NCBI GenBank assembly: GCA_902825985.1
Contig: CADEDC010000022.1
Coordinates: forward strand, 1-64,000
Direction of reading: 5' to 3'
Source: an uncultured Acidobacteriota bacterium
GTDB lineage: Bacteria > Acidobacteriota > Vicinamibacteria > Vicinamibacterales > CAVVIG01
Length of the DNA stretch: 64,000 nt
Part shown: piece after piece, positions 43,309 to 58,461 of the stretch
Position numbering within the stretch: the first letter of the stretch is position 1
How the letters are laid out: the number at the start of each line of letters is the position of its first letter
Notes under the pieces: model-generated
Databases searched by the model: none
Seen by the model: only the letters and a program-made list of their open reading frames with translations
What the model was told of the DNA's origin: nothing
Position numbers and translations under genes: made by a program

Positions 43309-44217
43309 GTGGTCGCCATCAAACGGATCGTCTGCCCGATCGACTTCTCTGACTTCTCGCAGCACGCGCTCGAACATGCTGCCGGCGTCGCCCGCTGGTA
43401 CGAGTCGCAGGTCACCGTTCTGCACGTCATTCCGATTCAGCCGCCGCCGGTGTCGCAATCCGAGTTCGACGGCTATCAGCTGACGCCGCAGGCGCCGCCG
43501 ATCGAGCTGGGACCCATCGCCGCCGCGGTCCAGCGATTCTGTGCGCCGGTGATACAGGGGGGGCGTGCCGAAACCGTGGTCCGGGTCGGCAACCCGCTCG
43601 ACGAAATCGTTGGAGAAGTCGGCGCGCGCGCCGCCGATCTGCTGGTCATGGGCACGCACGGGCGGAGCGGCTTCGACCGGCTGTTCCTCGGCTCGGTCGC
43701 CGAACGGGTGATCCGCAAGGTCAGCTGTCCGGTCATGACGGTGCCGCCGCGCAACCGGCACCTCGCCGGCGGACCGATCGTCTACAAGACGATTCTCTGT
43801 CCGATCGATTTCTCGCCACCGTCGGTGCGCGCCCTCGAATTCGCCCTGACGCTCGCCAAGGAGGCCGGTGGACGGCTGATCCTGATGCACGCCATCGAGG
43901 TCCAGACCGACGAGATGATGTTCGGCGAGAAGACCCACTACACGGTGCCCGAGTATTTCCGCTATCTGCGCGAAGACGCGCAGAAGCAATTGGACTCGAT
44001 GGTGCCGGACGAGGCTCGCGCCTGGTGTACGCCGGAGTGTCGGCTGCCGTCCGGGACGCCGTATCGTCAGATTCTCGCCACTGCTGACGAGACGGACGCC
44101 GATCTGATTGTGATGGGGGTGGCCGGACGCGCCGGATTCAGTACGATGCTGCTCGGGTCGACGACCAACCAGGTCCTGCGCGGCGCCACCTGCCCGGTGC
44201 TGACGGTCCGAAGCTAG
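43309..44217 (+). CDS. Tandem universal stress protein (two UspA domains)
   Basis: A protein of 302 residues starting with GTG at 43309; GGAGGTGA lies just upstream. The first domain ends in LLVMGTHGRSGFDRLFLGSV and CPVMTVPP, the second in LIVMGVAGRAGFSTMLLGST and CPVLTVRS, both ATP-binding Usp signatures. It is related to the Usp at 24992-25906. The last codon is AGC and the stop TAG (44215-44217) belongs to the CTAG that begins the palindromic element, so the element abuts the gene without altering its reading frame. Confidence 0.92.
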   Translation: MVAIKRIVCPIDFSDFSQHALEHAAGVARWYESQVTVLHVIPIQPPPVSQSEFDGYQLTPQAPPIELGPIAAAVQRFCAPVIQGGRAETVVRVGNPLDEIVGEVGARAADLLVMGTHGRSGFDRLFLGSVAERVIRKVSCPVMTVPPRNRHLAGGPIVYKTILCPIDFSPPSVRALEFALTLAKEAGGRLILMHAIEVQTDEMMFGEKTHYTVPEYFRYLREDAQKQLDSMVPDEARAWCTPECRLPSGTPYRQILATADETDADLIVMGVAGRAGFSTMLLGSTTNQVLRGATCPVLTVRS

Positions 44218-44379
44218 TCCCCTGGAACCGAGATGACTCACATAATTCCCGGGCGCGGCATCCCGCCTCGCGGCGTTGCTCCTCCCTCAGATATGGCCAA
44301 TATCCTCGGTCGTCGCGCCTTGCGATCCGGGCGCCGCGCGCCGGGACTTATGCAAGTCATCACGGTTCCAGGGGACTAG
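44214..44379. mobile_element. Palindromic CTAG-bounded element, copy B (complete, 166 bp)
   Basis: The element runs from CTAG (44214-44217) to CTAG (44376-44379). Its outer ends, CTAGTCCCCTGGAACCG and CGGTTCCAGGGGACTAG, are exact inverted repeats, and the match continues imperfectly (GATGACT / AGTCATC) inward to a centre at GATATGGCCAATATC, so the whole 166 bp can fold into one long hairpin. It carries no transposase. The copy at 58296-58461 is identical except for one base in its right CTAG. The left CTAG supplies the stop of the universal stress protein gene. This looks like a MITE or REP-like element mobilised in trans, with CTAG as target or duplication; the mechanism is inferred. Confidence 0.9.
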
Positions 44380-44517
44380 CTCCGACGCCAGATCGGACCG
44401 GCCCGGCCGGGCGGTTCACGGGATCGACGGCGGCGGATGACCGCCCGCGGCGCATGTTGGTCGACGATCCGGAGCCCGGGATGCGATGATAGGTGGACGT
44501 CAACCCAAGGGATGTTC

Positions 44518-45393
44518 GTGCACCACCACCGCCGGATCGATCAGCGCCGCTCCTCACGCTCAGCCATCCTGCAGCTGGTCAGCGCCGCCGCGATCGCGAC
44601 GAGCGTGATGCTCGCCGGCGGCGGCGCTGCCGCGCAGCAGGAGGCCGGCCCGGCCGACGGACCATCCGACGGACCGCGGCTGAACCAGCCGGGCAAGGAC
44701 GTCCAGTGGGTGCCGACGCCGCCGGCACTGGTGGAAAAGATGCTGGACATGGCCGGCGTGACGCCGAAGGATCGGCTCGTCGATCTCGGTTCCGGCGACG
44801 GGGTGCTGGTGATCGCGGCGGCCCGGCGCGGCGTCCGCTCGCGCGGCATCGAGTACGACCGCGGCCTGGTCGACTATTCGAGGCGCCAGGCGGCGGAAGC
44901 CGGTGTCGACCACCTCACGCGATTCGTGCGGGGTGACATCTTCAAGAGTGACTTCTCCGACGCGACGGTCGTCACGACCTTCCTGCTGCCGTCGATGAAT
45001 CTGCGGCTGCGGCCGACGCTGCTCGCCATGAAGCCCGGCACCCGCATCGTCGCCAACACCTTTGCTATCGGCGACTGGCAGCCGGATGAATCGGCGGCCA
45101 TCGAGCCATGCGAACGCTGGTGCACGGCCCTCATGTGGATCGTTCCGGCGCGCGTCGGGGGCACCTGGATCACCCCGAAGGGCGATCTCATCCTGACGCA
45201 GCGCTTCCAGCACTTCTCGGGCACGCTGGGCCGGGACCCGATCGAGAACGGCAAGCTGCGCGGCGAGACGATCTCGTTCACGGCCGGAGCGGCGCACTAC
45301 ACCGGACGGGTCGACGGCGACCGCATGCGGGTCAGCGCGGTCGTGGACGGCGAGGCGATCGAGTGGACCGCGCGCCCGCGCCCGCCACGGTAA
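44518..45393 (+). CDS. SAM-dependent methyltransferase-like protein with signal peptide
   Basis: A protein of 291 residues. The GTG at 44518 has AAGGG 6 bases upstream; ATG at 44512 is too close to that site. An N-terminal hydrophobic stretch (LVSAAAIATSVMLAGGGAAAQ) looks like a signal peptide. The Rossmann methyltransferase core follows: WVPTPPALVEKMLDMAGVTP, motif I LVDLGSGDGVLVIAAA, then RSRGIEYDRGLVDYSRR, and later FKSDFSDATVVTTFLLPS and KPGTRIVANTFAIGDW. It resembles small DOT1-like methyltransferases. Residues beyond ~190 form a beta-rich C-terminal part. A SAM enzyme with an export signal is unusual, since SAM is cytoplasmic; an anchored orientation is possible. Confidence 0.78.
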   Translation: MHHHRRIDQRRSSRSAILQLVSAAAIATSVMLAGGGAAAQQEAGPADGPSDGPRLNQPGKDVQWVPTPPALVEKMLDMAGVTPKDRLVDLGSGDGVLVIAAARRGVRSRGIEYDRGLVDYSRRQAAEAGVDHLTRFVRGDIFKSDFSDATVVTTFLLPSMNLRLRPTLLAMKPGTRIVANTFAIGDWQPDESAAIEPCERWCTALMWIVPARVGGTWITPKGDLILTQRFQHFSGTLGRDPIENGKLRGETISFTAGAAHYTGRVDGDRMRVSAVVDGEAIEWTARPRPPR

Positions 45394-45413
45394 GCCGTCG
45401 CCGTGTGATCGCC

Positions 45414-46271
45414 TCAGGGCACGGTCGTCAGCTCGGACGACGTGACTGTCACCTGCAGCGCCGTGAAGTCGTGGGCGCGTCCGTGGTAGGAACCCGATAC
45501 CGGCATCACGCCGCGCGGATGATGGCTGACGCCGGTGACCACGTGGGCGGCCGTCACCGGCCCTCCGACCGTCGGGTCGAAGCCGCGCCAGCCGAGTGTC
45601 GGCAGGTAGACCTCCGTCCACGCGTGCGTCGAGGCGCGCCCGGCGACCGATGCGGCACCATGGTGATAGCCGCTCGCGAAGCGGGCCGCGACGCCGCACT
45701 GACGCGCCGCCTCCATCAGCAGCGTCGCCATGTCGCGACACGACCCGGACTGCCGGGCCAACGTCTCCTCGGGCGATTGCACCCCCTTCTCGGAGCGGTG
45801 CTGATACTGGATGGTGGCGCGCACCAGTCGGCACAAGGTCAGCATCGAGCCTTCGGCGTCGCCGGCGTCGGCCACGAAGCCGGCGCGCAGCCAGTCCCGC
45901 AGCCGTGGCGCCTCCCCCGGCGGCGTGACATAGGGTGCGATCACCGGGGCTTCGAGCGGGTCGTAGCGCGGCGGATACGGCACGCGCCATGGCTCGTGCA
46001 GGTCGCGCTCGGGAAACGGCACGGTGCGCTCGACGACCACATCGGTAGCGATGCGCAGGAGGTCGGCAGGCTCGAGCCAGTCGACGAGCGCGATGGAATT
46101 GCCGAACACATCGCGGATCCACTGCACGCGATGGCGCGGCGCCAGCTGCAGTCCGAAGCGCTCGATGCGCAGGTCGTGTCCCTCGCGCGGCCGGACGACC
46201 AGGCGGTGGCGATGAAACGTCACCGGAACGGCGTAGGCGTATGCCGTGACGTGTTCGATGTGCAGGCGCAT
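45414..46271 (-). CDS. Transglutaminase-family protein (Bact_transglu_N plus core)
   Basis: A protein of 285 residues. The N-terminal beta domain (MRLHIEHVTAYAYAVPVTFH) is that of bacterial transglutaminase-like proteins. The catalytic triad is visible as Cys in QSGSCRDMATLLMEAAR, His in ASTHAWTEVYLPTLGWRGF and Asp in GFDPTVGGPV. It is likely to be a cysteine peptidase or amide-transfer enzyme. Such genes usually adjoin the circularly permuted ATP-grasp/alpha-E pair; here they lie 35 kb away. It follows the second transglutaminase gene by 9 bases on the same strand. Confidence 0.9.
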   Translation of the reverse strand: MRLHIEHVTAYAYAVPVTFHRHRLVVRPREGHDLRIERFGLQLAPRHRVQWIRDVFGNSIALVDWLEPADLLRIATDVVVERTVPFPERDLHEPWRVPYPPRYDPLEAPVIAPYVTPPGEAPRLRDWLRAGFVADAGDAEGSMLTLCRLVRATIQYQHRSEKGVQSPEETLARQSGSCRDMATLLMEAARQCGVAARFASGYHHGAASVAGRASTHAWTEVYLPTLGWRGFDPTVGGPVTAAHVVTGVSHHPRGVMPVSGSYHGRAHDFTALQVTVTSSELTTVP

Positions 46272-46280
46272 CGCTCGCGC

Positions 46281-47135
46281 CTACGTGTCGGTGCTGGCGA
46301 CGCCGCTGCGCGACAGCTGGCGGCGCCCGATCGGTGCGAACGACTGCCGGTCAGCCAGCTGGCAGGCCACCTCCACCCGCGTGCAGGTCGCGCTGCCGAA
46401 GATGCTGGCGACCGCCGCGTCGGCGGCGTCGCGGCCGGTGCCGATGCGCACCAAGCCGTTCAGATGCGCCAGGCGCGTGGCGTCGAAGACCACCCAGCTG
46501 CCGCCGATGAAGCATTCGAAACAGGCATGGAAGTCGGGTGGATCGAGTTCGTAGGCGTAGGCCGAGTAATAGCGCGCCGGGATGTTCAGCGCCCGGCACA
46601 GCGCGATGCCGAGGTGCGAGAAGTCGCGGCACACGCCGGTGCGCTGGGTCACGGTGTCGTACGCGGACGTCATCGAGTCGGTCGAGCCGCGGAGATACTC
46701 GACGTTGTCGTAGATCCAGTCGCTGATCGCGACCACCTTGGCATGCGGATTCCCGATGTCGCCGAACAGGTCCCAGGCCAGGCGGCTCAGCCGATCCGAC
46801 TGGCAGTAGCGGCTGGGGAACAGATAGGGCAGGGTGGCACCGTCGAGCTCGGCGACCGGCGTCACTGCGACGTCGCCGGCGCGGTAGATGTGCACGTCGC
46901 AATCGACCGTCGCAGCGTAGTTGACGACCAGCGTCCGGTGCGCGCCAGACTCGATCCGGACGAACCGGTTCGCCGAGTCGGCTGACGAGAATTCCGTGGT
47001 CGCGAGCGGCGGGTCGATCGTGAACGTCTCGTCGAGGATGGTCTGCGACGGCGTGCGCTGCGCATGCACGTTGAGAATCAGCGTGGATGGGAACCTGGCT
47101 TCGTACTCGAGGGCGCACGACACGTGGAACCGCAT
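46281..47135 (-). CDS. Transglutaminase-family protein
   Basis: A protein of 284 residues. The N-terminal ~110 residues form a beta domain (RFHVSCALEYEARFPSTLIL), then the transglutaminase core: Cys in QRTGVCRDFSHLGIALCRAL, His in DFHACFECFIGGSWVVFDAT, and the Asp in VVFDATR. It is the first gene of a two-gene operon with 45414-46271. It is probably a cysteine peptidase that cooperates with its neighbour. The ATG at 47135 has no strong ribosome-binding site. Confidence 0.88.
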   Translation of the reverse strand: MRFHVSCALEYEARFPSTLILNVHAQRTPSQTILDETFTIDPPLATTEFSSADSANRFVRIESGAHRTLVVNYAATVDCDVHIYRAGDVAVTPVAELDGATLPYLFPSRYCQSDRLSRLAWDLFGDIGNPHAKVVAISDWIYDNVEYLRGSTDSMTSAYDTVTQRTGVCRDFSHLGIALCRALNIPARYYSAYAYELDPPDFHACFECFIGGSWVVFDATRLAHLNGLVRIGTGRDAADAAVASIFGSATCTRVEVACQLADRQSFAPIGRRQLSRSGVASTDT

Positions 47136-47181
47136 GGTGGTGGTTGGCTGCAAGGGATGTGCCTCGCGGGTCAGTGACGTG

Positions 47182-47304
47182 CTAGCGATAGCGGCGGCCG
47201 AGGATTCGGCGGACGATTGCGAGCCGCGGCCAGCGCCTGGCCGCCCTCCCGGCGACCCACGACGCAACCGACATCAGCAGGAGCCGTCTGAGTAGGAGCC
47301 ACAC
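47182..47304 (-). CDS. Possible 40-residue basic small protein
   Basis: GTG at 47304 opens a 40-residue frame beginning MWLLLRRLLLMSVASWVAG and continuing with many Arg residues (RRILGRRYR at the end). GGGGGA lies about 9 bases upstream, a reasonable ribosome-binding site. The short amphipathic, Arg-rich pattern fits a small membrane-associated protein, but I recognise no family. It sits in the 354-base gap between the first transglutaminase and the WYL regulator; the rest of that gap shows nothing I can support. Confidence 0.4.
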   Translation of the reverse strand: MWLLLRRLLLMSVASWVAGRAARRWPRLAIVRRILGRRYR

Positions 47305-47489
47305 GGACACATCCCCCTTTTCTCGCCAGCCCTCACGACTTCAAAACGGATGCCTGCCGACCGGGCACGCCGCCGACCGTCGGACACGGTCGAGCAGGCG
47401 CGCCACACACCACGGGGCGGCCGCGGCGGCCGCGGCTCCGACGTGCGATGCCGGCAGCGGGAGCGCCGGCGGCTGCCCGGTGCGCCCGT

Positions 47490-48146
47490 TCAGCCCGTTG
47501 CGTGGGCGGGCGGCACCACCTCGGCCCACTCGATGCGATCGAGACGGTACTGCCGCGGCTGCTGTTTGTCGAGATCGACTGCGTTCAGCAGCGTCAGGCT
47601 GCGTTCGAAGACGATCCGTTCGACGCGAATGGTACGGAGCGACGCCGCCTGGCCCGGCGACGTGCCGGCGTAGAGAATCTGGAGCGGCCGCTGCTCGAAC
47701 CATGCCTGCTCCAGCGCGGTGCGCACGCTCGCCGGCACCGGCAGCGACGGCACCCCGGTAAACGTCAGCCGCTGCATCAGGTCGCCCAGCTCCCACTGCA
47801 CGGAAGACGAGAGGGCGCCCTGCACCTTGTCGAGTCCGCTCGCACAGGTCTCCAGGAACGGCACGAGCCGGAGGTCGAGCGCCCAGCGGCCGACGGTGAT
47901 CAGCACCGCCGCTTCGCGCGCCGTGAAATTGACCGGCGGCAGCGAATAGTGCCGATCGAGCGCGTAGCCACCGCCACGTCCGCGATCCGCCTTGAGCGGC
48001 AGGGCGCCGTCGCGCAGGGTGTTCAGATCCCGGTAGATCGTCCGCAGCGTCACGCCAAATCGCGCGGCCAGCACCTCGGCGGTCACGCCGGACCGGCGGC
48101 CGCGCATGTATTCGACGATCGCGAACAGGCGGGCGCGTCGATGCAC
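47490..48146 (-). CDS. WYL-domain transcriptional regulator (YafY-like)
   Basis: A protein of 218 residues starting with GTG at 48146. The N-terminus is a winged helix-turn-helix (RRARLFAIVEYMRGRRSGVT; AARFGVTLRTIYRDLNTLRD), and the C-terminal part is the WYL sensor region (QILYAGTSPGQAASLRTIRV). The region is somewhat shorter than the usual 230-300 residues. It is divergent from a VOC protein, and the gap between them carries a perfect inverted repeat (48155-48170) that is the likely operator for both genes. The ligand is unknown. Confidence 0.88.
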   Translation of the reverse strand: MHRRARLFAIVEYMRGRRSGVTAEVLAARFGVTLRTIYRDLNTLRDGALPLKADRGRGGGYALDRHYSLPPVNFTAREAAVLITVGRWALDLRLVPFLETCASGLDKVQGALSSSVQWELGDLMQRLTFTGVPSLPVPASVRTALEQAWFEQRPLQILYAGTSPGQAASLRTIRVERIVFERSLTLLNAVDLDKQQPRQYRLDRIEWAEVVPPAHATG

Positions 48147-48154
48147 ATCAAACC

Positions 48155-48170
48155 TGACAGAAGGCTGTCA
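48155..48170. promoter_or_regulatory. Inverted-repeat operator between the WYL regulator and the VOC gene
   Basis: TGACAG-AAGG-CTGTCA is a perfect 6-4-6 inverted repeat 9 bases upstream of the regulator start and 70 bases upstream of the VOC gene. A regulator gene divergent from its target with a dyad between them is the usual layout for autoregulation. A TATACC at 48182-48187 may be the -10 box of the VOC gene. Confidence 0.65.
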
Positions 48171-48240
48171 CAGCGGTCCAGTATACCTGTGGGTGCGCTC
48201 GCGGCCACGCCCGGCCGCCGCGTTCAGGAGTAAACACGTC

Positions 48241-48630
48241 ATGCATCACGCCATCCACTGGTTCGAGATTCCGGTGAACGACCTGCCACGGGCCACCGCC
48301 TTCTACGGCGCGGTCCTCGGCATCCACGAGTTCCGTTCCGAACAGTCGGGCGACACGGCGATGGCGCTGTTCCCGCACGACCGGACGGACCGGGGCGTCG
48401 GCGGCGCCCTGCTCGCGGGTGGTCGAGCCCGACCGTCGGCGACCGGCGTCATCGTCTATCTGAATGCCGGCAGCGACATCCGGGGCGCGGTCGAACGGGC
48501 CGTCGCGGCCGGCGGCAGCGTGAAGCAGCCGGTGACGGACATCGGCCCGCCCGGATTCGTCGCGTTGATCGAGGACACCGAGGGCAATGTGGTCGGGCTC
48601 CATCAGCCGCGCGCCGCTTCCGAGGTGTGA
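48241..48630 (+). CDS. VOC family (glyoxalase/bleomycin-resistance-like) protein
   Basis: A protein of 129 residues. HAIHWFEIPVNDLPRATAFYGAVLG is split across the first betaalphabeta unit, and GPPGFVALIEDTEGNVVGLH forms the last strand with the metal-ligand Glu. It is a small vicinal-oxygen-chelate protein acting on an unknown small molecule, perhaps a toxic aldehyde or electrophile. AGGAG lies about 10 bases upstream of the ATG. It is divergent from, and probably controlled by, the WYL regulator. Confidence 0.88.
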   Translation: MHHAIHWFEIPVNDLPRATAFYGAVLGIHEFRSEQSGDTAMALFPHDRTDRGVGGALLAGGRARPSATGVIVYLNAGSDIRGAVERAVAAGGSVKQPVTDIGPPGFVALIEDTEGNVVGLHQPRAASEV

Positions 48631-48722
48631 GCGGTCCGGCGGGCCAGGAGCGGGTTGACCCGCTCTCGGGAGAGCGGCAGGGGTCACGACAGGGACCGTG
48701 GCCCGTGCACTCCGCCTGGCCG

Positions 48723-49277
<555 letters not shown>

Positions 49278-49621
49278 GAGCGTGCCTCCGGAAGAAGACG
49301 AATGCGCCGACGAAGTCTGCGACGCGAACGACGAACCGGAGAACGTGCCCGTTCAGCTGAGCGACGAGGAGTCGACCCGAGTGACAGCGACGAGAGGTGG
49401 TGCGGACAGGATGTGTATCACGAACCCGGGTTGGTGGGAAGTCCTCCGCGAGCGGGAGAGTACCGAAGCACGGCCATCCACGGCAGCCGGCGAGCTGCGG
49501 TGCCCGTACCCGTCGAGCTGGGCGAGGAGCCCGCTGTTCGTCCGTGCATCCCTCGACAGCGCATCGTGATGCGGTCGGCCAGGGGTTCGAGACAGCTCAG
49601 CGATTCCCCTGGCCTCCGGCG
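49278..49621. other. Gap with a hairpin but no supported gene
   Basis: A 344-base stretch between two minus-strand genes. GGCCAGGGG (49577-49585) and CCCCTGGCC (49606-49614) form a perfect 9-bp stem with a 20-base loop shortly after the stop of the exported protein at 49622-50383, a likely 3'-end hairpin without a T tract. Open frames here have no domain or ribosome-binding site. Confidence 0.5.
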
Positions 49622-50383
49622 TCAGCGTCCGCTGTCGCGAGCCGTCCGAAACACGATGGGCGTGAGGATCGTGTTGCTGGAGTTGAACAGGTACCCGTCC
49701 CCCTGAACCGCCTGCGACGGTCCGTTGTGCGTGAACGTGGCGCTGCCGCCGCGACCGGCGGGAATCGGGCCACCCGTGAACGCGTCGAAGGTCGTGATGA
49801 ACGTCGTCTGATTGGCGGGCAGCGTGACGGCCCGCGTGTAGGTCGCCGAGCCGCCGAACGACTCGCGAACCGTCAGCGTCCCGGAGATCGAGCTGCCGGT
49901 CGTATTCTGCAAGCCCCACTGCGTGGCGAAGCCGCCGACGGTGCTCCAGCTCGAGTTGTAGAGCGTCGTATCGGATACCGAGTAGTAGAAGGTCCCGGTC
50001 GGCACGCGGGTGACGATGTAGCCCGAGCCGCTGGCGGTGGTGGTGACGCGGTAGGTGCGCGAGTCTCCACGCGGGTCGATCGGCTCGTTGCTCGACACCG
50101 TCGCATGGTCGGCGGTCGGGCAAATCTCGCTCAACGCGCCTGTGGTGGCTGCCCCCGCCAGGGCGTCGGTGGCCGACACGATCTCTATCGAATAGCTATG
50201 GCCCGCCGACGCCTGGAAGTACGGGGCGAAGATCGTGGTGGAGCCGTTGCTCGTGAACGGCCCCATGACGCGGCCATCAGCGAATGTGATGACGTAATCG
50301 GTGCATTGGGCCTGCGCCGGGTCGGCAAGGGAGAGTCCGAGGGCCAGAACCAGCATCGCCAGAATCGTTCGCACAGTTGGCAC
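49622..50383 (-). CDS. Exported protein of unknown function
   Basis: A protein of 253 residues starting with GTG at 50383, preceded by GGAGGA. A signal peptide ends at PAQAQC. The rest is Ser/Thr/Gly-rich and appears all-beta (GHSYSIEIVSATDALAGA; GSGYIVTRVPTGTFYYSVSD; GSSISGTLTVRESFGGSATY), resembling secreted pre-peptidase-type or adhesin-like beta domains. No catalytic motif is visible. It is probably secreted or on the cell surface. Confidence 0.65.
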   Translation of the reverse strand: MPTVRTILAMLVLALGLSLADPAQAQCTDYVITFADGRVMGPFTSNGSTTIFAPYFQASAGHSYSIEIVSATDALAGAATTGALSEICPTADHATVSSNEPIDPRGDSRTYRVTTTASGSGYIVTRVPTGTFYYSVSDTTLYNSSWSTVGGFATQWGLQNTTGSSISGTLTVRESFGGSATYTRAVTLPANQTTFITTFDAFTGGPIPAGRGGSATFTHNGPSQAVQGDGYLFNSSNTILTPIVFRTARDSGR

Positions 50384-50537
50384 AGTGTGTCCTCCGCACC
50401 GACATTTGAGCTCATCCGGTGCCAAAGGACAAGGTTGGCAACCTTCCCCACTGACCGGCCGTCTAAGCAGGTGGCTCACCGGACCCCGCCGGTGTCCTCC
50501 TCACGCGCGGCGGTGGTGCTGGCCCTGGCCCGACCCT

Positions 50538-51668
50538 ATGAGACGCATGTTGAGCAGCTCGTTGCTGGCGTTGGTGGCCGCTGCCCTCCTGGAGACCGTT
50601 CCCGGGCTCCGCGTCCGCGGTATCCATGCGCAGCCGGCGCCACAGGGCGCCAACGGCCTCCAGGCACTCGAAGAGACCATGGCGGTCGTCCGGAACCGGA
50701 ACGCACGAGACTACGCCATCACCTCACCGAACGGCATCGATGAAGGCCGGTGGGTGCCGCTCGGCGGCATCGAACAATGGATCACGATTCGGGGCGAGGA
50801 TCGCCAGAACCCGGTGATCCTCTTCCTGCACGGCGGCCCCGGCGACGCGAGCAATCCGTGGGCGTATGCCGGGTTTCGGTCGTGGCTGCGGGCGTTCACG
50901 GTCGTGCATTGGGATCAGCGGGGCGCCGGCAGGACGCTCGGCCGCAACGGCACGTCGGTGGCGGCGACCCTCACCATCGACCGGCTGACCCAGGATGGCA
51001 TCGAGCTCGCGGAAGTGCTGCGGGAGTCGCTGCACAAGGAGCGCATCCTCCTCGTGGGTCACTCATGGGGTTCGACGCTTGGCCTGTTCATGGCGAAGAG
51101 GCGACCGGACCTCTTCGCCGCTTTCATCGGCACCGGGCACGTGTCCGATCCGGCGCGCAATTATGCGGTCGCGCATGCCGACCTGCTGCGACACGCGGAA
51201 GCGCTGCGCGACCGTCGCGCCGTCCAGGAACTGACGGACGTGGGACCGCCGCCGTATCCGGACGGCCGCGGCTATTCGGTGCAGCGCAAGTGGTCGAATC
51301 TCTTCGAAGGGGCCGACCGGTTCATCGCATCGACGTTCGGTCTCGCCCTCGGTGCCCCCGGCTACACGACGAAGGACGTGGCGGACTGGATCGATGGCCA
51401 GGGGGTGAGCGCCGAGCGGCTGGTGCCCCACACGAGCGCCCTCACGAAGGAGCAGCTCGGCGGCGCCTTCCGCGTTCCCGTGTTCGTGGTGCAGGGCGCC
51501 GACGACTACACGACCCCTGTCAGTCTGGCACGCGCGTTCGTCCAGGAGATTCAGGCGCCGCGAAAGGCGTTCATCGTCATCGAGGGAGCCGGCCACTTCG
51601 CAGTGTTCATGAAGGCGGACGACTTCCTGAACATCCTCGTCTCGCGGGTGCGCCCGTTGACCCGCTGA
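50538..51668 (+). CDS. Exported alpha/beta hydrolase (prolyl iminopeptidase-like)
   Basis: A protein of 376 residues with an N-terminal hydrophobic segment (about residues 4-22). The hydrolase core shows ILFLHGGPGDASNPWAYAGF (oxyanion-hole HGGPG), VHWDQRGAGRTLGRNG, the nucleophile elbow GHSWGS, the acid in FVVQGADDYTTP and the His in EGAGHFAVF. HGGPG with WDQRGAG is the mark of proline iminopeptidase-like enzymes. It is likely to cleave small peptides or esters outside the cytoplasm. It converges with the flavin oxidoreductase gene, separated by 10 bases. Confidence 0.88.
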   Translation: MRRMLSSSLLALVAAALLETVPGLRVRGIHAQPAPQGANGLQALEETMAVVRNRNARDYAITSPNGIDEGRWVPLGGIEQWITIRGEDRQNPVILFLHGGPGDASNPWAYAGFRSWLRAFTVVHWDQRGAGRTLGRNGTSVAATLTIDRLTQDGIELAEVLRESLHKERILLVGHSWGSTLGLFMAKRRPDLFAAFIGTGHVSDPARNYAVAHADLLRHAEALRDRRAVQELTDVGPPPYPDGRGYSVQRKWSNLFEGADRFIASTFGLALGAPGYTTKDVADWIDGQGVSAERLVPHTSALTKEQLGGAFRVPVFVVQGADDYTTPVSLARAFVQEIQAPRKAFIVIEGAGHFAVFMKADDFLNILVSRVRPLTR

Positions 51669-51678
51669 CGCCGGCGCC

Positions 51679-53079
51679 TCAGATGGCACGACTGCCGACG
51701 CCGGCCTGCTCCGACGCCGGTCCGACCGCCGCTTCCTTGTAGATCCGGTACGCCTCCTCGAACATCTGATCCCGGTTCGCGAAACGGCTCTCTTCCCAGC
51801 AGGCCAGCGGCTGCAGCAGCGCATTGACGAGGCACTTGTTGCAGTAGGTACAGGGGCGCTCGGGCGCGTCCTGCCCCTGGCCGAACCGCTGGACCATGTC
51901 CGGGTTCGCCAGCAGCCCGCGCGCGACCGACACGACGTCACAGTGCCCCGCCTCGAGCGCCGCACGGATTCGGCTGGCCGTCTGCCAGCCGCCGACGCAG
52001 ATGACCGGCAGGCCTGAGGCCGCCTTGAGCTTCGCGGCATCGCCCTGGTTCATGCCTTCGATCTTCTCCGGCAGCAGCCGGCCCCGCTGCTTGAAGGGCA
52101 TGCGCCGGCCCCAGTTCCACTCGAAGATCCGGCGGAGCACCGCGAACTGCATGAGGAAGAACGTCAACGGGACGCGCGTACCCTCGTAGAAGAGGCCGGC
52201 AAGGCTGTAGCGGGAGTCGTCGGCCGGCAGCAGCCCGGCGGGCACGAGCGGATGCGGGAAGGAATCGCCCTGCGACAGATGGATGGCGTCGAGCCCGGCC
52301 TCCGCCAGCCAGCGTGAGAGCTGCATCGTGTCGTCGATGGTGTTGCCGACGCGACGGACGAACGGCGCCATATAGGCGTTGTGTTCGTCGCGGCCGCTCA
52401 GTTTCATCGACACGAAGAAGTCGCGGCCGACCTCGGCCCGGACGGCCGCCAGCACGTCCAGCAGGATCCGGGCGCGCGTCCGCAGGTCGCCGTTGTACTC
52501 GTCGCGGCGATCGTTGATGGCACTCGAGAGAAACTGATGCAACAGGTAGCCGTTGCAGGCGACGATCTCGATGCCGTCCGCGCCCGCCGCACGGGCGCGG
52601 CGGGCCGCCTGCGCATAGGCGCGGACCACGTCGTGGATTTCCGGAATCGTCATGCGGCGGCAGCGCAGCCCGTACAGCAGGTCCGGCCGGTCGGTGGCGC
52701 TCGGCGGGTGGATGCCGACGAACTCCTTCCGCGGCAGATCGCGCTGGCGCCCCGAGAAGTGGAGCTGGATGATGTACCGGCAGTCGTAGCGATGCACTTC
52801 GTCGATCAGCCGCCGCCACGACGGAATGGTGCGGTCGTCGTCGATGCTGGCATAGCCGGGTACCGCGATCCCATCGGTACGGATGCCGACGTTCGAGGAG
52901 ATGATGGCGCTGACGCCTCCCTTGGCGAACCGGCGCTCCCAGGCAATCCGCGCTTCCGACATCGAGCCGTCGTAGTAGTCGACACGTCCACCCATACTGG
53001 AGCGGACCACCCTGTTCTTCAGGGTCAATCCATTGATGCGCAGGGGCTGAAAGATCGGATCAGTGGCTGGCGCTGTCAC
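51679..53079 (-). CDS. Old Yellow Enzyme-family NADH:flavin oxidoreductase
   Basis: A protein of 466 residues; GTG at 53079 with GAGGAGG upstream. The FMN TIM barrel begins IFQPLRINGLTLKNRVVRSS, with IIQLHFSGRQ, AARRARAAGADGIEIVACNG and LLHQFLSSAINDRRDEYNGD. PVICVGGWQTASRIRAALEA and CDVVSVARGLLANPDMV form the phosphate site. A Cys cluster CTYCNKCLVNALLQPLACWE follows, similar to the iron-sulfur motif of 2,4-dienoyl-CoA reductases, but the C-terminal FAD/NAD domain of those enzymes is absent. It probably reduces an activated double bond. It is divergent from the five-gene redox operon. Confidence 0.9.
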   Translation of the reverse strand: MTAPATDPIFQPLRINGLTLKNRVVRSSMGGRVDYYDGSMSEARIAWERRFAKGGVSAIISSNVGIRTDGIAVPGYASIDDDRTIPSWRRLIDEVHRYDCRYIIQLHFSGRQRDLPRKEFVGIHPPSATDRPDLLYGLRCRRMTIPEIHDVVRAYAQAARRARAAGADGIEIVACNGYLLHQFLSSAINDRRDEYNGDLRTRARILLDVLAAVRAEVGRDFFVSMKLSGRDEHNAYMAPFVRRVGNTIDDTMQLSRWLAEAGLDAIHLSQGDSFPHPLVPAGLLPADDSRYSLAGLFYEGTRVPLTFFLMQFAVLRRIFEWNWGRRMPFKQRGRLLPEKIEGMNQGDAAKLKAASGLPVICVGGWQTASRIRAALEAGHCDVVSVARGLLANPDMVQRFGQGQDAPERPCTYCNKCLVNALLQPLACWEESRFANRDQMFEEAYRIYKEAAVGPASEQAGVGSRAI

Positions 53080-53134
53080 CGGACCTCCTCGTGTGCGGCT
53101 GCCGCGAACCGCTACGCATGAGCTAGAACAGCAG

Positions 53135-53163
53135 TTGTTCAGGACGGCGGTTACTCATATCAT
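53135..53163 (+). promoter_or_regulatory. Candidate promoter of the redox operon
   Basis: TTGTTC (53135-53140) and TATCAT (53158-53163) are separated by exactly 17 bases, with the start codon of the SRPBCC gene 43 bases downstream of the -10 box. The spacing and composition fit a sigma-70-type promoter for 53206-58299. Prediction by eye. Confidence 0.5.
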
Positions 53164-53205
53164 GTCCACCCGTCCCACGTATCGATATCCAAGGCGGACA
53201 TCAAG

Positions 53206-53712
53206 ATGGCCAAGGTTGCCACGACCGTGATCGCGACAATCGCTGTACCGAGAACGGCTCTCTGGAACTGGCTCGTCCCGGGTGTGTTCTACGACCAGCT
53301 CGAGAGTGTCGTCCGCGATGAAGCAGGCCTTCCCGGCTGCACCAAGACCACCGGAACGACCGGACCCTGGGATGTCGCCGGGTCGACGCGCATCGTCCAC
53401 CTCTCGGACGAGACCTACGTGCGGGAAACCGTGAAGGTGGCGACCGCCCCGCACTATTTCTCCTACCGGCTGACCGATTTCTCGAGCCGGAGCATCCGCC
53501 TCCTCGTCCGGGAGGCCGGCGGACAGTGGTGGTTCACCGACGAGGGGTCTGGCACCCACGTGAAGTGGACCTACACCGCAGAGAGCCGGAACTGGCTCGC
53601 CATGGCGGTCCTCTTCCCGGTCATCAGGATCCTGTGGAACCGCTACATGCGCTCGTCCATGCGCATCATCACGACGCGGGCGGAAACGGAAATCGGGGTG
53701 GCGGCGCGATGA
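53206..53712 (+). CDS. SRPBCC (START/polyketide-cyclase-like) family protein
   Basis: A protein of 168 residues. AVPRTALWNWLVPGVFYDQL at the start, a beta-rich centre with GPWDVAGSTRIVHLSDET, and a long C-terminal helix (FPVIRILWNRYMRSSMRIIT) fit the helix-grip SRPBCC fold, which binds hydrophobic ligands such as lipids or sterols. No enzymatic residues can be named. Its TGA overlaps the next ATG (ATGA), so it is translationally coupled to the catalase-like gene. It is the first gene of the operon. Confidence 0.7.
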   Translation: MAKVATTVIATIAVPRTALWNWLVPGVFYDQLESVVRDEAGLPGCTKTTGTTGPWDVAGSTRIVHLSDETYVRETVKVATAPHYFSYRLTDFSSRSIRLLVREAGGQWWFTDEGSGTHVKWTYTAESRNWLAMAVLFPVIRILWNRYMRSSMRIITTRAETEIGVAAR

Positions 53713-54797
53713 CGCAGTGGGATTTCGACCTGGTCAAGCTACACGGGCCGCAGGAAATGACGGCCGAGGACTTCGGCTATCACGGTTCGCGGTACGCCGA
53801 CGTCCGCAGGGCGATGTACGAGAACCCCTATCGGGCCGGTCCCAGCGGTCAGGAGCCGGGTCCGCTGCCCCTGTTCAAATCGACGATCCGCAACGCGTGG
53901 CGCGGCCTGCTGTCCGGTGAGAACAAGTTCCGGCAGGCGTCGGCACGGTCCATGGACTCGCAGGCCGACCTCCGGTGGGGTCCGGACCGCAAGGGCTGGC
54001 GGCGGATCATCGCGCCGAACGGCATCTGTGTCTTCGGCACCTGGGAGATCACCGAGAACAACATCTACACGGGCTACTTCCAGAAGGGTTCGAAGGGGCT
54101 GACCGTCGGCCGGTTCTCGTCCGACGGCAACGAAACCCGGCGGGGCCAGCGCCGGTCGTTCAGCCTCGGCATGAAGGTCTATCCGACGACGGATCCCGAG
54201 CATCCGTCGCCGCTCGTCCCGGCCAGCGTGATCGTCCAGGAAGATCTCGGCGGCATGCGCACCGATTACATCAACGATGCCGAACTCGTGAACACCCCGA
54301 GCGTCCACTCGTATCGTCGCGGCATCTACTTCCTCGTCATGCTGCGGGCCGGCACGATCTTCCAGCGGCTCGACAAGGTCGGCGACGCCAGGCAGGTGTT
54401 CCAGGTGGCGGAACTCGGCAAGGACCCGGCCGTACCGACCCACGCGCCCGAGCATCTGATGTTCAAGATGGCGCAGGGACAGCGGCGCGTCGAAGGCCGG
54501 GGGCTGGATTTTCGCGACGAAATCTACGGCCACCTGTTCAATCCCGGCGATGCGGCTCCGACCGGTTCCATGGTGTTCGACATCTGCGTCTCGAGCACCG
54601 GCCGGATGAGCGGCGTCCGCGGCCTGTCGACCGTGAAGGTCGACGACTGGCAGCGCATCGGGACCCTGCGGTTCGCCGAGGCCGTCTGCTCGTACAACGG
54701 CGACCACGTCATCCAGTTCCACCACCCGCGCTGGCGCGACGACCGCAACGATCCGTCCACCTACATCCGCGTCAACGGCATCCGGGTTCGCCGCTGA
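53709..54797 (+). CDS. Catalase-like (heme-fold-related) protein, tentative
   Basis: A protein of 362 residues. The block RRIIAPNGICVFGTWEIT, then TGYFQKGSKGLTVGRFSSDG and RGQRRSFSLGMKVYPTTDP, resembles the catalase/catalase-related core, in which the motif reads roughly VHAKGxxxFGxF followed by VRFS. By hand alignment the distal heme His is replaced by Ala (IIAPNG), and I cannot find the usual proximal Tyr box. It may be a divergent heme protein, an allene-oxide-synthase-like enzyme, or a member that has lost heme. It overlaps the SRPBCC gene by ATGA and precedes the GMC oxidoreductase by 22 bases. Confidence 0.55.
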   Translation: MTQWDFDLVKLHGPQEMTAEDFGYHGSRYADVRRAMYENPYRAGPSGQEPGPLPLFKSTIRNAWRGLLSGENKFRQASARSMDSQADLRWGPDRKGWRRIIAPNGICVFGTWEITENNIYTGYFQKGSKGLTVGRFSSDGNETRRGQRRSFSLGMKVYPTTDPEHPSPLVPASVIVQEDLGGMRTDYINDAELVNTPSVHSYRRGIYFLVMLRAGTIFQRLDKVGDARQVFQVAELGKDPAVPTHAPEHLMFKMAQGQRRVEGRGLDFRDEIYGHLFNPGDAAPTGSMVFDICVSSTGRMSGVRGLSTVKVDDWQRIGTLRFAEAVCSYNGDHVIQFHHPRWRDDRNDPSTYIRVNGIRVRR

Positions 54798-54819
54798 GCC
54801 GCGGACCAGAACACCGCCC

Positions 54820-56400
54820 ATGGCCGCATCCTTCGACGTCATCGTGATCGGCAGCGGCTTCGGCGGTGCCATCATGGCCCGGCGCCTCGCCGAGCAGGGC
54901 ATGCGCGTGCTCGTGCTCGAACGCGGCCGACGGTGGGAACCCAGCCAGTACCCGCGCAAGCCCGGCGATGCCTGGGTGTACAGCGACGACCATCCCGGCC
55001 TGTTCAACGGCTGGCTCGACATGCGCTTCTTCCGCGGCATGACGGTCGCCCAGGCTGCCGGCGTTGGCGGCGGTTCGCTCTGTTACAGCAGCGTCGCCGT
55101 CGAAGCGCGGCCGGACGTCTTCACGCGCGGCTGGCCGGCCGAGATCACGCACCAGGAACTCAAGCCGTACTACGACACGGTGGCCCGCGAGATGGACCTG
55201 CAGGTCCTGCCCGACGGACAGCTGACCCGCCGATTCGAGCTGGCGCGCGACGCGTCGAGAAACCTCGGCTATGCCGCGCGATTCGCCAAGGCGCCGCTCG
55301 CCGTCAGCTTCTCCCCCGACTGGCACTATGGTCTGGACGATCCGTTCGACCACAAACACTCGCGGCAGTTCACCAATGCCCACGGCCAGACGCAGGGGAC
55401 GTGCGTGCACCTCGGGAACTGCGACCTCGGCTGCGACGTACGAGCCAAGAACGGCCTCGACGTCAACTATATCCCGCAGGCCGAACGGCGAGGCGCCGAC
55501 GTCCGCCCGCTGTGCCTGGTTCGCTACATCGAGCCGGCCGACGGTGCGTATCGGGTGATATTCGACCGCATCGAGCACGGCCGTCTGGTGCGCAGTCACG
55601 AGACGGCGACGCGCGTCGTCCTCGCCGCCGGCAGCCTGGGCAGCACCGAGATCCTGCTGCGCTGTCGCGACCAGTACCGGACGCTGCCGCTGGTGAGTGC
55701 AACACTCGGCACGCGGTGGAGCGCGAACGCCAATTTCATCTCGATGGCGGTGTACGCGGGCGACGAGAACATCCGGCAATCGACCGGCCCCACCATTTCC
55801 GGCATGCTCGACTTCGCCGATGGCGGCTATCGGAACCAGCGATTCGTCGTCGAGGACGACGGGTTCCCGAATCTGCTGCTGAATGCGATCAAGGCCAGCC
55901 TCGACAGCCGGGTGCGGACGCGATTCGGCCGGCAGCTGCTCGACGAGCTCGAGGAGTTCGTGCGAGACGACACGCCGCTCCGCAACCTGATGTTGTGGCT
56001 CGGCGCCGGTCAGGATGCCGGCGACGGCCGCATCTTCCTCAAGCGTCGATGGTTCACGCCGTGGAAACGGGCGCTGAGCCTGTCGTGGCAGGTCGAACCG
56101 TCCGAAGGCGTGCTCGAGGCGATCGAGTCGATGCACCAGAACCTGACGGAAGCAACGGGTGGGCGCTTCCGCTCGATGCCGACCTGGAGCCTGCTGAAGA
56201 GCCTGTTGACGCTGCACCCGCTGGGCGGCTGCCCGATCGGTACGTCGGCCGACAACGGCGTCGTCGATCACCTCGGCCGGGTCTTCGGCTATCCCAACCT
56301 GATCGTCGCCGACGGCGCCGTGCTGCCGACGCCGACGGTGCGCAATCCCTCACACACCATCGCCGCGCTCGCCGAGCGCATGGCCGCTCACGTCCAGTAA
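54820..56400 (+). CDS. GMC-family FAD oxidoreductase (cholesterol-oxidase-like)
   Basis: A protein of 526 residues. FAD binding: FDVIVIGSGFGGAIMARRLA at the N-terminus and VLVLERGRRW; GGGSLCYSSV follows in the substrate/FAD region. TCVHLGNCDLGCDVRAKNGL is a Cys-rich block shared with cholesterol-oxidase-like members, and TLHPLGGCPIGTSAD carries the catalytic His. NLIVADGAVLPTPTVRNPSH completes the FAD site. It should oxidise an alcohol, possibly a sterol, terpenoid or other lipid, with oxygen or a carrier as acceptor. There is no signal peptide, so it acts in the cytoplasm. Confidence 0.9.
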   Translation: MAASFDVIVIGSGFGGAIMARRLAEQGMRVLVLERGRRWEPSQYPRKPGDAWVYSDDHPGLFNGWLDMRFFRGMTVAQAAGVGGGSLCYSSVAVEARPDVFTRGWPAEITHQELKPYYDTVAREMDLQVLPDGQLTRRFELARDASRNLGYAARFAKAPLAVSFSPDWHYGLDDPFDHKHSRQFTNAHGQTQGTCVHLGNCDLGCDVRAKNGLDVNYIPQAERRGADVRPLCLVRYIEPADGAYRVIFDRIEHGRLVRSHETATRVVLAAGSLGSTEILLRCRDQYRTLPLVSATLGTRWSANANFISMAVYAGDENIRQSTGPTISGMLDFADGGYRNQRFVVEDDGFPNLLLNAIKASLDSRVRTRFGRQLLDELEEFVRDDTPLRNLMLWLGAGQDAGDGRIFLKRRWFTPWKRALSLSWQVEPSEGVLEAIESMHQNLTEATGGRFRSMPTWSLLKSLLTLHPLGGCPIGTSADNGVVDHLGRVFGYPNLIVADGAVLPTPTVRNPSHTIAALAERMAAHVQ

Positions 56401-56413
56401 CAAGGAGCCCTCG

Positions 56414-57838
56414 ATGCCGCCGACTCACAAAGGATTGCGCGAGCTGTTCACGTATCCGTTGATGTCCGCGATTTTCGACCGCCGCACGCGCCGCGTCGCC
56501 CGCGGAACGTCGGTCGTGTCAGGCCCGATCAGCTACACGAGCCCGAACAAGCCGGCGCCGCTCAGCCCACTCGAGGAGGCGGTGCTGATCGTCTCGACCG
56601 GGCTGACCGGCAAGTCGACGATGCACGACGTGCCGGCGAAGAACGACGACGGCAGCGACCGATTCTCGGCGCCGCTCATCAACATCCTGGCGCGCTCCGC
56701 CAGCAGCATCGACAACGCCCACGCCGTGTCGTTCTTCCTGATCAACGACGAGGGGACGTGGTTGATCAAGCATCCACGCAACCGGGCGGGGCTCGAACTG
56801 CTCAGCCAACTGCCGCCGCGCTGGGAAGACTGGAGCGAGTCTGACTGGCTCGCCGCCGCCGCGAGCCTGAAGCACAAGCTGTACAAGGAACGGTTGGACT
56901 TCCCGCGCCACTGGCCGTACTACTTCATCTGGAACCGGCAGCTGTCGAACCGCCCGGGTACGACGATTCTGCTGCCTGTCGTCGACCTGACGCGCCAGTT
57001 CATCAACGTGATCATCTCCCTGCTGTCGGAGGAGGACGGCCAGCGGCCGCTCTTCATCGACGACTGGCAGCGCTTCCGGCCGCGCACCCTCCTCGACTGG
57101 GGCGCCTGGTTCGGCGGACTCGTCGGGTTGGTGCCGGACATCACCTATCAGATCATCGGCGGCGCCACGCGCGCCCGTGGTGACTGGCTCAACCGCGACT
57201 ACCCCGCGCCGATTGGCTTCGCGAACACGCTGCGGACCGACTACGAAACGTTCTTCCAGATGCAGAATCTGATGCTCATCGCCCAGGGCATGGGGCTCGG
57301 CGCCTGGATCCACGCGGCCGTCGGCTCGCCCTACCTGTTCGAACGCGATCCCGCCAAAGGGAAGTTCGGCATCGAGTTCCGCATGCAGAAGCCGAAGAAG
57401 TGGCGGCGCTGGCCGCCCCTCCCGACGACGCTGGACAACCCGATCGGCATCGATGGCGTGCTCGAGACACTGACGCCGCCCTATGTCAAGTCGATGAACG
57501 ACGCCGTGGACACGGTCATCGAGGAGAAGTACGGGCCGGCCGGCACCTACGGCGACTCCACGATCTTCGATCGCGCCTACAAGACCAAGGAGTTCGGCGA
57601 TGCCTTCCTGAAGATGGCGAACCGCCGGCCGACGCCGCAGGCCATCGACTACACGAAGGAGATCTGCAACTACATCTACGACACCTACGGCCGCTTCCCG
57701 GCCCACGTCAACGCCGTCCACGTCCCCGGTGTCTGGCTCCAGTTCTCACACCTGGAGCTCGAGTTCTACGAGAAGTACTTCGACAAGGACCTCTATCATC
57801 GGCAGGCGGCTCACGATCAACTGTGGGAAGAGCGCTGA
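56414..57838 (+). CDS. Uncharacterised protein, possible nitroreductase-like fold
   Basis: A protein of 474 residues with AAGGAG before the ATG. MSAIFDRRTRRVARGTSV near the N-terminus, PLSPLEEAVLIVSTGLTG, and QMQNLMLIAQGMGLGAWIHA in the middle recall the FMN-binding nitroreductase fold (arginine-rich start, mid-domain GLGA helix). I cannot confirm FMN ligands, and the protein is more than twice the usual length. Later blocks such as PPYVKSMNDAVDTVIEEKYG and CNYIYDTYGRFPAHVNAVHV are unassigned. It may accept electrons from, or act after, the GMC oxidoreductase encoded 13 bases upstream. Confidence 0.5.
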   Translation: MPPTHKGLRELFTYPLMSAIFDRRTRRVARGTSVVSGPISYTSPNKPAPLSPLEEAVLIVSTGLTGKSTMHDVPAKNDDGSDRFSAPLINILARSASSIDNAHAVSFFLINDEGTWLIKHPRNRAGLELLSQLPPRWEDWSESDWLAAAASLKHKLYKERLDFPRHWPYYFIWNRQLSNRPGTTILLPVVDLTRQFINVIISLLSEEDGQRPLFIDDWQRFRPRTLLDWGAWFGGLVGLVPDITYQIIGGATRARGDWLNRDYPAPIGFANTLRTDYETFFQMQNLMLIAQGMGLGAWIHAAVGSPYLFERDPAKGKFGIEFRMQKPKKWRRWPPLPTTLDNPIGIDGVLETLTPPYVKSMNDAVDTVIEEKYGPAGTYGDSTIFDRAYKTKEFGDAFLKMANRRPTPQAIDYTKEICNYIYDTYGRFPAHVNAVHVPGVWLQFSHLELEFYEKYFDKDLYHRQAAHDQLWEER

Positions 57839-57912
57839 TTCCCGCACGTCGGCGGGGCCGCCACGAACATGGCCGTTGACACCGCGCGTCGCGGTGCCCA
57901 GAATGACGACTG

Positions 57913-58299
57913 GTGAGCGCGACCAAGACGTATCGGCTGATGCTGGCGATCAGCATCCTGGCCAATCTGGCAACCGGAGCCATCATCTTCGGATGGCCCG
58001 ACGCCTTCACGAGTTTCGCCGGACAGCCCGAGGCGTTCCCGAAGGCGTGGCCCCGCCACTGGGGGATGCAGCTGTGGGCGATCAACCTGCTGTATCTGCC
58101 AGGATTCTGGGATCCCGAACAGAACCGCTGGCCGAACTGGATGGGGATCGTCATCCGGTTCACGTTTGCCGCGTTCTTCTTCAGTCAGGGCGACGGATTC
58201 ACGCCGATGGGGATTTACGACGCCGTCTCGGGAGCGCTGCTGCTCATTACCTACCTGCCGGTGACACGCGTGAGCCGCGTCACGCGGGCCGACGCCTAG
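57913..58299 (+). CDS. Four-helix membrane protein of unknown function
   Basis: A protein of 128 residues, GTG start at 57913, with hydrophobic stretches at about residues 8-27, 48-62, 73-90 and 98-115 (LMLAISILANLATGAIIFGW; MGIVIRFTFAAFFF). It is an inner-membrane protein; the closest impression is of small DoxX-like or DUF membrane proteins, but I cannot assign a family. It closes the redox operon. Its final codons are GAC GCC TAG, and the TAG (58297-58299) belongs to the CTAG opening the palindromic element. Confidence 0.65.
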   Translation: MSATKTYRLMLAISILANLATGAIIFGWPDAFTSFAGQPEAFPKAWPRHWGMQLWAINLLYLPGFWDPEQNRWPNWMGIVIRFTFAAFFFSQGDGFTPMGIYDAVSGALLLITYLPVTRVSRVTRADA

Positions 58300-58461
58300 T
58301 CCCCTGGAACCGAGATGACTCACATAATTCCCGGGCGCGGCATCCCGCCTCGCGGCGTTGCTCCTCCCTCAGATATGGCCAATATCCTCGGTCGTCGCGC
58401 CTTGCGATCCGGGCGCCGCGCGCCGGGACTTATGCAAGTCATCACGGTTCCAGGGGACCAG
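58296..58461. mobile_element. Palindromic CTAG-bounded element, copy C (complete, 166 bp)
   Basis: Starts with CTAG (58296-58299) and ends with CCAG (58458-58461). It is identical in length and sequence to copy B except for C instead of T in the last tetranucleotide. The left CTAG provides the stop codon of the membrane-protein gene, and the element sits between that gene and a convergent cytochrome gene. A short plus-strand frame from 58315 crosses it but is simply a translation of the repeat. Confidence 0.9.

Follow-up and report, generated by a model that had tools for sequence, protein, structure and literature searches.

A putative IS630-type miniature transposable element of an uncultured acidobacterium carries a conserved core that recurs in many phyla

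The window analysed here comprises the first 64,000 nucleotides (forward strand) of contig CADEDC010000022.1, abbreviated C22, from the assembly GCA_902825985.1 of an uncultured Acidobacteriota bacterium, and it contains a repeated element of 166 bp. Judged by its sequence, this element is a non-autonomous miniature inverted-repeat transposable element (MITE) of the IS630 (Tc1/mariner) type, with CTAG as its target and TA as the duplicated part. The explanation that probably holds combines two parts: an IS630-type MITE that is mobilised in trans, and a separate conserved module in its middle, the core, which would act as a single strand and aid the spread or persistence of the element. MITEs are usually regarded as passive remnants defined by their ends. 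The pattern is reversed here: the ends vary, the centre is conserved over about ten phyla, and fold, length and strand are constrained.

Two full copies, counted with their flanking CTAGs, are located at 44,214–44,379 (copy 1) and 58,296–58,461 (copy 2). A third, of which only the right end is present (element positions 112–166), occupies positions 1–55 and is cut by the start of C22. In all three the structured strand is the minus strand. Sequence comparison revealed a single difference between copies 1 and 2, T164C, which leaves CTAG at the right end of copy 1 and CCAG at that of copy 2. The terminal inverted repeats of copy 1 are exact over 17 bp, and its centre is GATATGGCCAATATC. These observations agree with a preliminary description of this DNA, which had reported the two copies one base apart, the partial copy at 1–55 and the 17-bp repeats. 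It had also proposed that the entire element can form one hairpin. The fold is indeed far more stable than expected by chance (DNA z = -10.6, RNA z = -13.7, none of 200 shuffles equally stable); however, positions 37–130 are only an imperfect palindrome, and this asymmetric part is the portion conserved between genomes. Counting the copies over the whole genome and comparing their flanks, as the description had advised, gave 12 full copies in the own genome (G000), which are 98–100% identical, lie on 11 contigs in both orientations and have unrelated flanks. Three partial copies are found at contig edges, at the starts of C22, C108 and C95. A 79-bp form at C63:33141–33219 has an end that matches the sequence at the start of C95, and it thus marks one additional site, whose copy is collapsed or has an internal deletion. 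Contig breaks at the element are expected when a multi-copy repeat is assembled; the copies were not created by the breaks.

The core is located at 44,262–44,333 in copy 1 and at 58,344–58,415 in copy 2 (both minus strand), and each scores 80.7 bits with the model R1. It contains a conserved asymmetric motif, AAGGCGCGACGA...GAGGAGCAACGC, whose 5′ half lies at 44,310–44,321 and whose 3′ half lies at 44,273–44,284 on the minus strand of copy 1. Read on this strand, the halves pair as GC-[GA]-C-[GA]-CC-[GA]-apical stem, every GA standing opposite a GA. We infer that the facing GA tandems form sheared G.A pairs. The pairs between the tandems covary: the single pair is C-G, G-C or A-U, and the double pair is CC/GG, GC/GC, CU/GG or others. 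At one locus (L037), a GA/GA step is replaced by bases able to pair in the Watson-Crick manner. The covariation reached 0.331 against 0.104 after shuffling in one alignment and 0.429 against 0.150 in another. In each alignment it exceeded every one of 500 shuffles and every slid control, the slid controls being far lower; of the two alignments, A1 includes sequences picked by the exact motif, so that its conserved positions are biased, and A2 was collected by the model and is hence fitted to the structure. The arms and most variable pairs lie outside the search pattern for the core. In several acidobacterial copies (L026, L105, L140, L169 and L176), the arms enclose a mini hairpin rich in GC, such as CCCCAACGCGGC.GCCGCGTTGGGG.

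The stem also differs between its two strands. In double-stranded DNA, a C to T change on one arm and a G to A change on the other are equally likely, and these lead to G.U or A.C, respectively. With one representative taken from each of 28 clusters, the ratio of G.U to A.C is 44:10 in the 20 bp adjoining the core (p = 3e-6, with kinship corrected by clustering only) and 65:51 farther out. At one apical position G.U is the commonest state, in 46 of 56 rows. The orientation of the genes does not explain this asymmetry, as 22 elements are sense and 21 are antisense. The bias suggests that one strand is under selection, either as RNA or as single-stranded DNA, and that this selection would be confined to the core and the inner stem. 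As a separate observation, replication strand was compared in complete chromosomes (G203, Binatia; G204, Longimicrobiales; G099): in two of them the structured strand is mainly the one opposite to the leading strand, a strong bias that a third does not show. The counts, made by hand, are about 41:14 in the two chromosomes, with arrays collapsed, and 26:29 in the third, and the skew of a fourth chromosome is too weak to judge; they are not used as support.

Related copies are present in 18 of the 27 genomes of the family, often with only the middle (about positions 37–130) matching and the outer ends differing. The core was found in 87 of 149 genomes of the class. In a scan of species genomes, both motif halves occur in at least 119 stretches, and about ten phyla are represented among the matches listed; these include Acidobacteria, Gemmatimonadota, beta-, gamma- and deltaproteobacteria, Myxococcota, one actinobacterium, Verrucomicrobia, Eisenbacteria, Krumholzibacteria and Binatia. 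Fifteen core-bearing genomes were searched whole and contain 3–71 copies each, which argues against single misbinned contigs, although the majority of these genomes are metagenome-assembled. Throughout, the MITEs that share the core differ in their ends and arms. Searches of plasmid and phage collections did not find the core.

The length of the element is constrained as well. Where the ends are recognisable, the left arm mostly measures 56–58, the core 48–52 and the right arm 54–56 bases, and the total is mostly 161–166 bp; this holds from Acidobacteria through to gammaproteobacteria and Eisenbacteria, even with arms that differ in sequence. Elements of Burkholderiales mostly measure 229–231 bp owing to a long right arm. 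They were at first taken to lack inverted repeats, which was rejected once the right end was found 130 bp away, giving ends of the form CCTAG...CTAGG. An additional stretch of about 70 bp enlarges the right arm of many copies in Gemmatimonadota (L102, L104, L115, L120, L130, L145, L165, L174 and others); it bears TGACATAATGTAATGT...TTTACAT-like repeats and recalls the 50-bp insert found in the long form of Correia. In L106 and L113 (Longimicrobiales, OX639991), MITEs form tandem arrays of two to five units with a spacing of about 171 bp.

The assignment to the IS630 type follows from the ends, the target and the elements of relatives. The element is 166 bp long, contains no transposase gene and has inverted-repeat ends, as befits a MITE. 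CTAG flanks both ends in 11 of the 12 full copies, copy 2 having CCAG at one end; across relatives the commonest flank is TA preceded by C. In copy 1, the left end (44,214–44,249, plus strand), which includes the 17-bp exact inverted repeat, resembles the end of the insertion sequence (IS) over about 36 bp, and the right end, likewise of the IS630 type, lies at 44,344–44,379 (minus strand). Relatives possess IS630-family transposase genes (PF13358) in elements whose CTAG ends belong to the same classes. The exact end CTAGTCCCCTGGAA is present in 18 of the 193 genomes of the class; a reversed control gave one match. In three relatives, CTAGTCCCCTGGA bounds a transposase element of 1187–1191 bp (L257, 326–1514; L258, 1501–2691; L264, 328–1514), each with a transposase gene that is related to the others. 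The two transposases tested scored 258.8 and 251.7 bits with the NCBIfam IS630 model (cut-off 100) and match Pfam DDE_3. The first 13 bp of the MITE and IS ends are identical, except at the mutated end of copy 2.

Mobilisation in trans by an IS630 transposase is thus the most likely origin of the copies. The preliminary description had suggested that a non-autonomous element, moved in trans, had spread recently, and it had advised a search for a full-length IS with the same ends. The suggestion is supported by the 12 near-identical dispersed copies with unrelated flanks, by TA/CTAG at both ends and by the full-length IS630 elements of the three relatives. The description had not recognised the element from described families; a donor family can be named, IS630. 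Besides this family, it had overlooked the preference for TAG stops and the conserved strand-specific core, which also occurs in differently ended MITEs of many phyla. At L088 (1377–2640), one CTAG is the meeting point of two elements, one of the IS630 type and the other a MITE whose ends differ, which suggests that a restored target was reused. Mini palindromes joined end to end (26–34 bp) were seen, together with solo ends of this kind of MITE, at L249 (1481–1514), L265 (1489–1514), G000:C30:3513–3533 and G000:C5:69264–69280; they are perhaps deletion products.

The insertion sites are mostly the stop codons of genes. At 13 of 15 sites, the CTAG contains an in-frame TAG that ends a gene-like frame; this holds for 10 of the 12 full copies and for each of the three contig-edge sites, compared with 7 of 18 other CTAGs examined. 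In the window, a universal stress protein gene (43,309–44,217, plus strand) ends with the TAG at 44,215–44,217 within the left CTAG of copy 1, and an open frame of 128 amino acids without a family match (57,913–58,299, plus strand) ends with the TAG at 58,297–58,299 within the left CTAG of copy 2. Because the first base of the element is G and the last is C, CTAG is regenerated on both sides, the TAG stop is kept and the gene remains intact. CTAG is rare, with 13 sites in the window outside the element, and a considerable part of the possible targets therefore consists of stop codons. The excess at stop codons may reflect the purging of insertions within genes. One site, behind a putative arginine decarboxylase gene (named from its sequence), is empty in two relatives, whose version of the gene has TGA as its stop.

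We propose the following course of events. An IS630 transposase with the same ends, supplied in trans, would excise the MITE, which would then insert at a CTAG with duplication of TA and restoration of CTAG on both sides; insertion at a TAG stop would leave the gene intact. The middle is a separate conserved module and not a remnant of the IS: its hairpin carries facing GA tandems arranged like a ladder, and its distance from either end is almost constant. We infer that one strand of the core, of defined sense, is the active form, most likely as RNA, and that the core provides a strand-specific function raising the spread or persistence of the element. Several points weigh against this explanation. 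Good agreement between the IS and MITE ends is limited to 13 bp; beyond that, up to about 36 bp, the identities are scattered. No DDE_3 (PF13358) gene is present in the own assembly, a draft that is 98% complete, and the donor is therefore deduced from relatives. The G.U bias would fit selection on one strand of single-stranded DNA as well. No sigma-70-type promoter was found in the element, nor any promoter or terminator by simple consensus, and the insertions favour neither orientation with respect to neighbouring genes (22 sense, 21 antisense); any transcription of the core is thus putative.

The strongest competing explanation places the role of the core at the level of DNA in what would still be an IS630-type MITE: bending, cruciform extrusion or an IHF-like host protein would join the ends. 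We consider it rather unlikely, but it is retained because the length is fixed, the arms and the total size being nearly constant across phyla; an IHF site is also present on one form of the Correia element (PMC2229807). However, an excess of G.U over A.C on one strand, restricted to the inner arms, is unexpected for a double-stranded site, and the base pairs covary whereas the GA tandems persist. It is less probable still that the core is kept as a host regulatory RNA in 3′ untranslated regions, as has been proposed for ERIC and Correia transcripts. Insertion directly behind stop codons and the selection on a strand-specific structure would suit such a role, but the orientation relative to flanking genes is unbiased, the one site checked is not shared with relatives, and the core occurs in differing MITEs and not beside fixed genes. 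An ordinary internal-deletion derivative of IS630, with leftover IS sequence in the middle, would explain ends that resemble those of the IS over up to 36 bp; this is very improbable, since the core was not found in the tested autonomous IS630 loci and recurs in MITEs whose ends are quite unlike one another. Segmental duplication or an assembly artefact, which the preliminary description had named as the outcome contrary to mobility, can practically be dismissed: contigs do break at the element, but the 12 full copies have distinct flanks on 11 contigs and related copies exist in other genomes.

The recurrence of the core in otherwise unrelated mini-transposons suggests an undescribed function needed for their spread. 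Should the core turn out to be a functional RNA, non-autonomous elements would own a trait for exploiting many different transposases. The model R1 provides a means to find and name such elements in many genomes, and the old question of why some MITEs outnumber their donors becomes testable. A broader generalisation is offered tentatively, as a real possibility that falls short of our expectation. The GA-tandem hairpin would be a general transferable module of IS630-type mini-transposons, acting as RNA or as one strand of single-stranded DNA, carried by non-autonomous and not by the tested autonomous elements, combining with many ends and needed for success in about ten phyla; the Correia elements may be a diverged branch.

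Among known elements, RUP of Streptococcus pneumoniae (IS630-Spn1) is similar in being short and gene-less, with IS630-like inverted-repeat ends, a TA target and dispersed near-identical copies. No internal functional motif has been reported for RUP (PMC2229807); unlike RUP, the element described here has a centre conserved across phyla and variable ends. REP elements and REPINs, with their RAYT transposases, are likewise short dispersed palindromes, but the present element is larger, uses a CTAG/TA target and has a probable DDE-type donor with the same ends. ERIC of enterobacteria is a TA-ended hairpin MITE with facing GA dinucleotides in its fold. It was considered as a homologue of the core and rejected, as it scores 5.2 bits with R1 and its resemblance lies within that of shuffled sequences (63–86 of 1000), indistinguishable from chance. 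Compared with Rfam, neither the window nor the cores of 18 loci reached the gathering score of any family, and a lenient search with the two copies gave matches at chance level only. The core sequences were not found in the papers searched, a wider search returning unrelated primers, and reviews of bacterial MITEs are silent on any core common to them; subscription papers lay mostly outside this search, so that a prior description is possible. The Correia (NEMIS) elements of Neisseria are hairpin MITEs with TA ends, and they carry CAAGGCGACGA and GCAACGCC, which come near to both core halves with small gaps (1 of 1000 shuffles was as good). They differ in their ends and size, R1 does not detect them, and the resemblance as a whole is weak. 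Two Neisseria gonorrhoeae sequences filed as plasmids in PLSDB, NZ_CP119140.1 and NZ_CP119142.1, are of chromosome size (2.17 Mb).
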